Positions 57,244-60,411 of a stretch of 64,000 nucleotides of DNA are shown here, in pieces. Positions within the stretch are counted from its first letter, which is position 1. Each line of letters opens with the position of its first letter. A program made the position numbers and the translations under genes. The notes below the pieces were generated by a model. It ran no database searches. It saw nothing but the letters and a program-made list of their open reading frames with translations, and was not told the DNA's origin. This stretch comes from Saccharopolyspora thermophila (lineage in GTDB: Bacteria > Actinomycetota > Actinomycetes > Mycobacteriales > Pseudonocardiaceae). The stretch is taken from assembly GCF_014646075.1 (NCBI RefSeq), contig NZ_BMMT01000003.1, positions 1-64,000 of the forward strand, written 5' to 3'.

Positions 57244-57705
57244 GTGCCCACCGATCACCGCGCCCAGGTCGAGGAGCTGATGGCGGATTACCGGCGCAGC
57301 CGGGAACGCCTCGCCGAGACCCGCCGCGACCTGTCCTCGATCGCCGAGTCGGCGAGCAGCAGGGACGGCAGCGTGCGGGTGGTGGTCGGTCCGCAGGGCG
57401 TGCTGCGCGACGTCGTGCTCGCCGACAACGTCTACGACCGGCATCACCCGGATCGGCTGGCGGAGATCATCGTGGAACTGGCCGAGCAGGCCGCGCAGGC
57501 CGCCGCGCGGCGGGCCGCCGACGTGCTCGCCGAGGTCCTGCCGACCGGAACCGATCCAGAGCTGCTGCTGGGCGGACGCGCCGACGGCGAGTCGGTTCCG
57601 GTGCTGCGCAACGAACCGCGAGGCATGGACGACAATGTCGGCGACAGCGCCGACGATTTCTGCGATGGCAGCTGGTTGCAGCAAAGCCCGGCGAAACGGA
57701 CGTGA
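57244..57705 (+). CDS. YbaB/EbfC-family nucleoid-associated protein
   Basis: 153-residue protein. After a helical N-terminus (QVEELMADYRRSRERLAETRRDL) comes the YbaB-type strand-helix part SVRVVVGPQGVLRDVVLADNVYDRHHPDRLAEIIVELAEQAAQAAA, where members bind DNA or act as small chaperones. The C-terminal 50 residues are polar and acidic. In actinomycetes YbaB-like genes often stand first in gene sets with WXG100 proteins and type VII substrates. GGAGGGAG precedes the GTG at 57244. It overlaps the next gene by GTGA, so the two are coupled. Confidence 0.78.
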   Translation: MPTDHRAQVEELMADYRRSRERLAETRRDLSSIAESASSRDGSVRVVVGPQGVLRDVVLADNVYDRHHPDRLAEIIVELAEQAAQAAARRAADVLAEVLPTGTDPELLLGGRADGESVPVLRNEPRGMDDNVGDSADDFCDGSWLQQSPAKRT

Positions 57706-58032: not shown

Positions 58033-60411
58033 ATGGGCATCGAACTTCCCGCGGAACTGCGGGATGTCGCGGCGCGTGCGGGGGCTCGCTGGCCGGAGGC
58101 CGACGAGGACGCGATGCGCGCGGCGGCGTCCGCGTGGCGGGCCGCGGCCAGGTCGATCGACGCGCTCGCCGGATCGGCCGACAGCGCGGCCCAGAGCGCG
58201 CTCGCCGCGTTCGACGGCGACGCGGCGCAGGCGGCGCGCCGGGAGTGGAACGGGCTGGTGGCCGACGACGGGATGCTGCCGTCCTCGGCTCGGCAGTGCC
58301 GGGCCGCGGCGGACCGCCTGGAGCACGCCGCGGAGCAGATCGGCGCGGCGAAGGTGCAGCTCGTGCGGGAGCTGGTGAACCTGGCCAAGCAGACCGACGC
58401 GGCCGAGCAGGCGGCAGCGGCCGGACACCCGCAGGCGCTGGCGGCGCTGGACTCGGCGCTGCACGGCGTGGCGGCAAACGTGGCGAAGGTCCACGAAACC
58501 CTGGCGAAGGCGGTGGACTTGGACAGCGGAGTGCTGGTGGAGCCGACCAGCATCCGCCTGCCGTCCGGCGCCACCAGCCTCGCTTCCTCCACAGTGGACA
58601 GTGTGGGTGCTGTGGCCGGACACCTCGGCGGTGGTGTCGGATCGGCGGCGAAGGACGTCGCCGGTGACGTGGGAGCCGCTGCCGACGAACTCACCTCCGG
58701 TGCCGGTTCTGTCGCGGACGGCGACGGCCAGGCGTCGGGTGTCGCCGACGACGTCGGCAGCGCAGCTGAGCACGTCGGCACGTCAGCCGGGGAGGCCATC
58801 TCCCGCGGCGCGGCGGGTGCGTGGCAGGGCGATGCCGAGCACACCGGACCGGTGCGGGTCGATGCGAGAGGCTGGGCTCCTGGCCTCGCCGACGCGGGCA
58901 CCGGCCCCATCCCCACGGTCGGCGACCACCCCGCCCGCCCCGGCTGGATGCCCGCCGGGACCGACCCGGCGTCGAGCACCGCGCCGCACCAGGTGCGCTC
59001 CGCCTGGGCTGCTGCCCCGCAGCCGCCACCGCCGCCTGCGGCTCCCGGCTTCGCCGCACCGCCTCCGGCGGTACCGGGCGGCCACTTCGCGGCGCCGCCC
59101 GCGCACCAGCCGCCCACCACGGCACCTCCGGTATCCGCCGCGCGGCCTCCGATGCCGCCGGCCGCGGCTCGCGGCCCAATCTCGTTCGGCTCCCAGCCGG
59201 TGCCGCAGGTGCGGCAGGTGCCGCGCGCTCCGCTGCGCCCGCTCCCGGCTCCGGTGGCACCACCGCCCCCGCCGCAGCCGGAACCGTCGCAGCGGCCGCT
59301 GCGGCAGGCCGGGCGCAATCCGGATGTGGTTGCGTTCGTGCTGCACCAGTTCCCGATCGGCTACCTGCCGGTGGCAGCGAGCCACGCGAGCAGGCAACTG
59401 CCGGTGCCGGAGTCGCCCGACGCGCGGCGGCCCGGCCTGCGGTTCCCGCCGCAGGACCATCCGCAGTCGCACCTGGTGGACGACAGCGCCGCGCTGGAGC
59501 GGGCGCGCTCGACCGAGGTCTACGCAGCCGCGCGGCGCGACCGGGAGGAGCGCGAGGAACCAGAGCGGCTGCCCGCAGAGCTGGTGGCGGACCACGAGCC
59601 GTTCGGCGAGCTCAGCGAATGGGAGTGGGAGCACCGGTTCGTGGTACGCGACGGCGAGCGCAGCGAGTACGCGTGGCCTCCGGCGGCGGAGTTCCCGGAG
59701 GGCGGCGTGGAACCGGCGGAGCCGGTGGTGCTGGCGCCGGATGCGGTGATCGACTGCCTGGGCGGCGGGGACGGCCGCGTGGCGTTCGCGGCGGGGACGG
59801 CGTTCGCGCAGCGGTCGCTGCCGCCGGAGGACCGCGACCGCGCCTACCGGCGCTACCGGGTCATGCGCCCGCTGCCCGTGTGGCAGTCGGTGGCGGCGCC
59901 GTGGTTCGCCCAGCCGGGCGGCGGGATCCGCTACCGCACCACGTATTCCCTGGTGGACCTGGTTGCCCTGGGTTACCTGGTGGAACTCACCAGGGCCCGC
60001 GCGAACGCGGAGGCCACGACCCTGCGCCTCGACCGTTCCGCGGCGAATCCCCGGCAGCAGGACGGTGTCTGCGCACCGCTGCGGGCGGTTGCCCCGCAAG
60101 GAATCGCTTCCGAAGGCGACGAGTCGGATGCTGCGGCACGCGACGACTCTGCCCCAGAAGTCCCGCAGGCGACCGACGGTGAACCGACCGCGCGCGACAG
60201 CGACGCGGCTGAGTCCGGTCGACGTGCGGGCGAGGACTCCACCACCGTGCGCACCACGCACGTGACCGAGGGCGGAGGCGCGTCGGCGCGCGGGAAGCCT
60301 GGTGGTGCCGCGGTGGAGACGGTGCGGATCACGCAGGGTGACAGGGAGGCCGGAACCGCGGACGCGGCGGGAGCGGCGGACGACGAGGCGACGCAGGAGG
60401 CCGGGAATTGA
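58033..60411 (+). CDS. CpnT-like type VII protein with a degenerate TNT domain
   Basis: 792-residue protein. Residues 1-165 are helical and WXG100-like (WNG at 72-74), like the N-terminal domain of CpnT. A Gly/Ala/Ser-rich stretch (about 165-280) and a Pro-rich linker (about 320-425) follow, then a conserved segment RNPDVVAFVLHQFPIGYLP (about 428-450). Residues about 540-652 match the TNT NAD+ glycohydrolase domain (YAWPP, AQRSLPP, APWFAQPGGGIRYRT, DLVALGYL). However, the residues aligned with CpnT Arg757, Tyr765, His792 and Gln822 are Cys575, Val583, Arg606 and Arg633; only Arg780 (Arg594) is kept. A 140-residue acidic tail follows. I infer no or altered NADase activity. The ATG at 58033 follows GGGGGTGAG. 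Confidence 0.78.
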   Translation: MGIELPAELRDVAARAGARWPEADEDAMRAAASAWRAAARSIDALAGSADSAAQSALAAFDGDAAQAARREWNGLVADDGMLPSSARQCRAAADRLEHAAEQIGAAKVQLVRELVNLAKQTDAAEQAAAAGHPQALAALDSALHGVAANVAKVHETLAKAVDLDSGVLVEPTSIRLPSGATSLASSTVDSVGAVAGHLGGGVGSAAKDVAGDVGAAADELTSGAGSVADGDGQASGVADDVGSAAEHVGTSAGEAISRGAAGAWQGDAEHTGPVRVDARGWAPGLADAGTGPIPTVGDHPARPGWMPAGTDPASSTAPHQVRSAWAAAPQPPPPPAAPGFAAPPPAVPGGHFAAPPAHQPPTTAPPVSAARPPMPPAAARGPISFGSQPVPQVRQVPRAPLRPLPAPVAPPPPPQPEPSQRPLRQAGRNPDVVAFVLHQFPIGYLPVAASHASRQLPVPESPDARRPGLRFPPQDHPQSHLVDDSAALERARSTEVYAAARRDREEREEPERLPAELVADHEPFGELSEWEWEHRFVVRDGERSEYAWPPAAEFPEGGVEPAEPVVLAPDAVIDCLGGGDGRVAFAAGTAFAQRSLPPEDRDRAYRRYRVMRPLPVWQSVAAPWFAQPGGGIRYRTTYSLVDLVALGYLVELTRARANAEATTLRLDRSAANPRQQDGVCAPLRAVAPQGIASEGDESDAAARDDSAPEVPQATDGEPTARDSDAAESGRRAGEDSTTVRTTHVTEGGGASARGKPGGAAVETVRITQGDREAGTADAAGAADDEATQEAGN

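Follow-up and report, generated by a model that had tools for sequence, protein, structure and literature searches.

Family PF14021 includes AfNADase and the NAD glycohydrolases (NADases) of Neurospora and Fusarium (PDB entries 6YGE/F/G, 8R17 and 8R15), and proteins that match it are easily read as NAD-hydrolysing toxins. Three residues of AfNADase – Arg129, Phe137 and Gln194, the R-F/Y-Q motif of the active site – are described as vital to activity in PMC7955114. For CpnT, in which the TNT domain comes with IFT (4QLP), PMC6398120 reports that variant R757A of TNT has no detectable activity and retains its fold, that R780A is inactive too but is an unfolded protein, and that Tyr765 and Gln822 are 'important but not essential'. 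Here we analyse a window of 64,000 nt from the soil bacterium Saccharopolyspora thermophila (NZ_BMMT01000003.1, positions 1-64,000, forward strand), where a CpnT-like gene, its residues numbered from position 58033, ends in a TNT domain in which most of these residues are replaced, and is overlapped by the gene of a small partner protein.

An earlier note on this DNA had proposed that the fold of the domain was kept and its chemistry was not, and that it was either a pseudoenzyme or an enzyme with a new substrate. Going by the residues, the pseudoenzyme now seems the likelier of the two; the note had missed that the loss of Arg757 is local, that a conserved partner is present, and that a second lineage in the same genomes lacks the catalytic glutamine. 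The TNT domain has the NADase fold but, judging from its pocket, has most likely lost the ability to hydrolyse NAD(P)+, and reading PF14021 matches as NAD-hydrolysing toxins is probably wrong for its lineage, termed R-type below. We think that TNT domain and partner are probably a domesticated, non-hydrolysing pair, a fixed complex descended from a toxin and its antidote that now serves a non-toxic role. The earlier note knew of no described family of TNT pseudoenzymes; among open-licence PMC papers we likewise found none, nor any account of the R-type or A-type lineages described here.

Active site of the window domain

The presence of a TNT domain is upheld both by the PF14021 match (98.3 bits) and by a fold search in which the predicted structure matched the TNT NADase fold. 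When aligned with the fungal TNT NADases of the PDB, Cys575, Val583, Arg594, Arg606 and Arg633 stand at the places of Arg129, Phe137, Arg148, the histidine of YHVY and Gln194 of AfNADase. The motifs align without a gap, on which ground misalignment of the active site was rejected as an explanation. Numbering and alignment thus agree with the earlier note on its four replacements (Cys575, Val583, Arg606 and Arg633) and on the retained Arg594. All three residues of the R-F/Y-Q motif are replaced, by Cys575, Val583 and Arg633, and the DRXG/QRXL motifs (Asp756-Arg757 and Arg780) are incomplete: Asp574 and Arg594 are kept, as is an aromatic residue, Trp548, while Cys575 takes the place of Arg757. 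The window domain differs accordingly from CpnT in its pocket residues. The earlier note also counted His792 among the active-site residues, for which we found no supporting text in the literature. That Arg633 and Glu556 might form a salt bridge and so plug the pocket is an idea only.

A conserved lineage and a two-step loss

We scanned 150 relatives, 90 of which had a match, and call matches with E 2.1e-24 or better orthologue-strength. By a hand count from the match tables, 77 of 89 genomes of the same family, Pseudonocardiaceae, contain such a match, most of the 77 being seen by match strength alone and not by residues. A scan of named genomes (140 relatives, the best 80 kept) gave, together with the window, the 81-row sets used below, in which distant members are under-sampled; by their NCBI names 79 of the 80 loci belong to Pseudonocardiaceae, the last coming from an unplaced metagenome bin. 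The named row closest to the window is that of S. spinosa (83% identity in the concatenated alignment, 374 columns compared).

The earlier note had suggested looking for orthologues with the same replacements, and the Gln822 column indeed holds Arg in 80 of the 81 domains, with Cys in the last. The Tyr765 column reads V66 L7 I4 F2 M1 W1. Asp574, Arg582, Arg594 and Arg635 are invariant, and such conserved arginines argue that the domain has retained a function rather than decayed. The median ratio of nonsynonymous to synonymous substitution rates (dN/dS), calculated on 13 hand-picked Saccharopolyspora sequences, is 0.27 for the TNT domain and 0.15 for the partner, which is the more conserved of the two. 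With an intact frame and a dN/dS well below 1, random decay into a pseudogene is rejected. The clean alignment, the fold of the model, purifying selection and a clade sharing the Gln-to-Arg exchange all support the earlier view of a fold preserved without its chemistry. As in a pseudoenzyme lineage, a conserved clade under purifying selection has lost catalytic residues, but the loss of Arg757 is confined to the window's own group. Indeed, while Arg757 is kept in 64 of 64 rows outside Saccharopolyspora and Halosaccharopolyspora, it is lost in 16 of the 17 rows within, window included (C8, L5, H2, A1), where only S. rectivirgula keeps it.

It follows from this distribution that the Gln-to-Arg exchange and the loss of the aromatic residue are family-wide, whereas the loss of the essential arginine is local; the motif columns were masked in the tree of the 81 rows. 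The window is the end state of a two-step change, in which Gln and Tyr/Phe went first and Arg757 went afterwards, in one group only. In this one lineage of Pseudonocardiaceae, Arg replaced the catalytic Gln, and Val or, less often, another residue replaced Tyr/Phe; the window's group went on to lose the arginine that binds phosphate and nicotinamide as well. That Arg757 was retained after the catalytic Gln had gone points to a pocket that was still of use, perhaps for binding a ligand. The stepwise loss provides natural intermediates for asking whether binding outlives catalysis.

Neighbouring genes are shared as well: a biotin ligase (BirA) gene and a PH-domain gene are each found near the TNT gene in 69 of 80 loci, and an HMG-CoA-lyase-like gene in 66, several of the remaining loci lying on short contigs. 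A mobile or recently acquired toxin is not supported, given these common neighbours, and the locus has more the look of an operon passed on vertically in the chromosome than of a mobile polymorphic toxin.

The main rival, which we consider unlikely, is that the same fold has taken up a new substrate or reaction: arginines 582, 633 and 635 would bind a different phosphorylated substrate, and the protein would have remained an enzyme and perhaps even a toxin paired with its antidote. The near-complete conservation of these arginines (Arg582 and Arg635 in 81/81 domains, Arg633 in 80/81) would fit such a use, as would two residues specific to the R-type lineage, Glu556 (98% of 93 domains) and Trp617 (91%), and the retention of the partner, as expected of an antidote. 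Yet no candidate nucleophile or general base was shown; Arg757, constant elsewhere, drifts to C, L, H or A in one group which nevertheless retains the gene; and common neighbours combined with a slowly evolving partner are unlike a toxin engaged in an arms race.

Three classes of TNT domains

A census of TNT matches (194 in 186 loci, two loci of family f8 and two window copies being set aside) allowed us to place the R-type lineage among its relatives. Classes were defined by the letter in the Gln822 column, so that this letter is given by definition and the other columns are independent of it. Once identical rows and locus L142 had been removed, 167 domains remained: 28 Q-type, 93 R-type (rows with Cys included) and 46 A-type (Ala, Gly or Val). 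Phe or Tyr stands at 765 in 28/28 Q-type, 4/93 R-type (Phe in all four) and 0/46 A-type domains, Arg757 is present in 27/28, 72/93 and 46/46, respectively, and the Arg582 column holds Arg in all R-type domains, Asn in all A-type domains and a mixture in the Q-type. In a motif-masked tree each class lies on one side of a branch, with support by the Shimodaira-Hasegawa-like approximate likelihood ratio test (SH-aLRT) of 97 for R-type, 89 for Q-type and 84 for A-type; this tree (92 rows, 102 columns) was made by a quick method, and its inner forks are weak.

These counts bear on the possibility of a residual NADase activity. In such a reading the window domain would be a weak NAD(P)+ glycohydrolase relying on other residues, which we regard as very unlikely. 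It has in its favour the retained Asp574, Arg594 and aromatic residue at the place of Phe727, together with the 'not essential' rating of Tyr765 and Gln822 quoted above; but Arg757, which is essential in TNT, is Cys in the window, the counterparts of Phe137 and Gln194, vital in AfNADase, are gone, and the Q-type domains show Phe/Tyr at 765 without exception and Arg at 757 with one.

Of the three TNT domains in the genome to which the window belongs, one is R-type and two are A-type. Both A-type paralogues (L001, C3:174600-174854, and L003, C3:314710-314967) have Ala for the catalytic Gln and Val or Thr for Tyr, with a partner-family domain preceding TNT in the same frame. Like the window, A-type proteins have replaced Gln and Tyr/Phe and are linked to a domain of the partner's family. 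Unlike it, they have Ala, Gly or Val for Gln, keep Arg757 in all 46 distinct domains, and in 45 of 52 proteins carry the partner domain in frame ahead of TNT. They constitute a second lineage, with an antidote-family domain built in.

The Q-type loci L144 (genome G077) and L148 (G065), by contrast with the R-type lineage, still have Asp-Arg-Gly, Phe, Arg, His and Gln in the motif columns. Locus L142 (G238), which comes from a different family of the class, shows Arg at the place of Gln822 and retains Arg757, Tyr765 and His792; it falls outside the R-type clade on a long branch, possibly through an independent change.

A co-translated partner

What is new here is the co-translated 101-residue partner and its conserved pairing with the R-type TNT domain. 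Its gene is present in 80 of 80 loci, overlapping the TNT stop by 4 nt in 77 of them, and in a hand comparison an orthologue-strength partner accompanied the orthologue-strength TNT match in all 77 genomes. One genome (G060) has an orthologue-strength partner, near a contig start, without R-type TNT, and 11 of the 89 have neither at that strength. The locus has the arrangement of a toxin-antidote pair, an antidote-family gene lying directly downstream alongside the toxin gene.

We found no Pfam or NCBIfam family for the partner itself, and 56 relatives gave only scattered weak Pfam matches, shared by at most two members each. Its profile picks up the gene that immediately follows each of two Q-type TNTs, L144 (E 3e-20) and L148 (E 2.1e-13). 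A profile alignment with the Q-type genes shows only 28% identity. Both L144 and L148 resemble the window in having a C-terminal TNT domain and an overlapping downstream gene of the partner's family, and L148 also has an N-terminus of the type VII secretion system (T7SS) type, its matches being below the Pfam cut-offs. When iterated at E 1e-3, with no hand choice, the profile also matches the genes behind L115, L120 and L132 (E 4e-13 to 4e-14), as well as a segment that precedes TNT within one open frame in the 45 A-type proteins mentioned above, both of the window's genome included; the first round reached three of the 52 A-type frames, and the 45 came in later rounds. An earlier test of this relation had used hand-chosen sets of 15 fused-domain and five antidote sequences. 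The partner was not matched to the IFT of CpnT by sequence or fold: a profile comparison with the PDB gave no convincing sequence match (best E 0.57), and IFT is not among the 50 fold matches listed. Identity of the partner with IFT, tried as a candidate, is thus not shown.

Several further arrangements concern the partner's family. Behind a catalytically typical TNT gene, three consecutive partner-like matches (G077:C1:7625533-7626342) resemble an antidote array. At L174 and L186, partner-family frames lie on the strand opposite a Q-type TNT. Three genomes of the family that lack any PF14021 match have partner-like matches (G057:C722:25583-25795, 39% identity; G062:C1:3213664-3213900, 43%; G087:C18:893-1129, 32%), and it is possible that these are orphan antidotes or partners of another toxin.

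What the pair may do

In the domesticated pair that we favour, TNT domain and partner would form a fixed complex, as their pairing, the overlap of their genes and the fused A-type arrangement suggest. The N-terminal region, of the type exported by T7SS, would carry this complex, its export being predicted from that region. Our first guess at its role is binding by the arginine-rich pocket, which would be either capped by the partner or occupied by an anionic ligand. With an antidote built into A-type proteins, a releasable toxin would be hard to square.

The partner-like genes that occur without TNT weigh against this reading: they make it slightly less likely, and slightly raise the likelihood that the locus is an antidote store. 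There the partner would be the selected part, protecting against neighbours whose TNT toxins are catalytically typical, and the inactive TNT domain would merely stabilise or carry it. This we find quite improbable. It would account for the partner being the most conserved part (dN/dS 0.15), for its kinship with genes behind some Q-type TNTs, and for the three genomes just mentioned; but an orthologue-strength partner without R-type TNT was met once only, in G060, and 28% identity to the Q-type genes makes cross-protection doubtful.

A more far-reaching form of the domesticated pair, which we put forward tentatively, would extend it to the whole family: a TNT domain without NADase residues and with invariant arginines, in permanent complex with its former antidote, would, without catalysis, bind or sense an anionic ligand – possibly NAD(P) where Arg757 is kept – in a core chromosomal function of Pseudonocardiaceae. 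A toxin-antidote pair with constant neighbours across most of a bacterial family offers a testable example of a weapon put to a new purpose.

Layout of the locus

The TNT gene belongs to a presumed operon (Table 1). A YbaB gene lies upstream of it in 67 of the 80 related loci, and the small WXG100-like gene has a tblastn match in 64. The protein carries the WXG100-type N-terminal domain of CpnT-like toxins.

Table 1. Genes, domains and pocket residues of the TNT locus, in window coordinates
Feature	Position	Strand	Remarks
YbaB/EbfC-family protein gene	57250..57705	+	PF02575, 36.5 bits (cut-off 25.5); first in presumed operon; start codon uncertain, with the frame open further upstream
Small WXG100-like protein gene, 106 aa	57708..58028	+	PF06013 weak, 15.8 bits, below cut-off 27.3
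CpnT-like gene, 792 aa	58033..60411	+	Pfam; WXG100_2 N-terminus, Pro-rich linker, C-terminal TNT domain, polar tail; intact frame
WXG100_2 domain PF25547, residues 17-134	58081..58434	+	51 bits (cut-off 27)
TNT domain core PF14021, residues 567-651	59731..59985	+	98.3 bits (cut-off 27); fold search
Trp548	59674..59676	+	Aromatic before Pro-Pro, place of AfNADase Tyr100 / TNT Phe727; kept as aromatic; W in 73/81, other 8 gaps
Cys575	59755..59757	+	Place of essential Arg (TNT Arg757 / AfNADase Arg129); column R65 C8 L5 H2 A1 in 81
Arg582-Val583	59776..59781	+	Arg582 is Arg in 81/81; Val583 at place of Tyr765 / Phe137
Arg594	59812..59814	+	Place of Arg780 / Arg148; kept, 81/81
Arg606	59848..59850	+	Place of His792, His of YHVY; column R66 H13 Q2
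Arg633-Tyr634-Arg635	59929..59937	+	Arg633 at place of catalytic Gln (Gln822 / Gln194), R in 80/81, one Cys; Arg635 81/81
Partner gene, 101 aa	60408..60713	+	Start overlaps TNT stop by 4 nt

The genome has four EccB genes, none of which lies within the window. Between the Pro-rich linker and the TNT thumb, residues 431-482 (window 59323-59478) make up a conserved block, modelled with low confidence. Comparison with relatives further shows the segment 54700-63863, which spans the MaoC-like gene through the partner gene, to be inverted with respect to both flanks, the DUF2339 and biotin-ligase sides being exchanged in side and strand.
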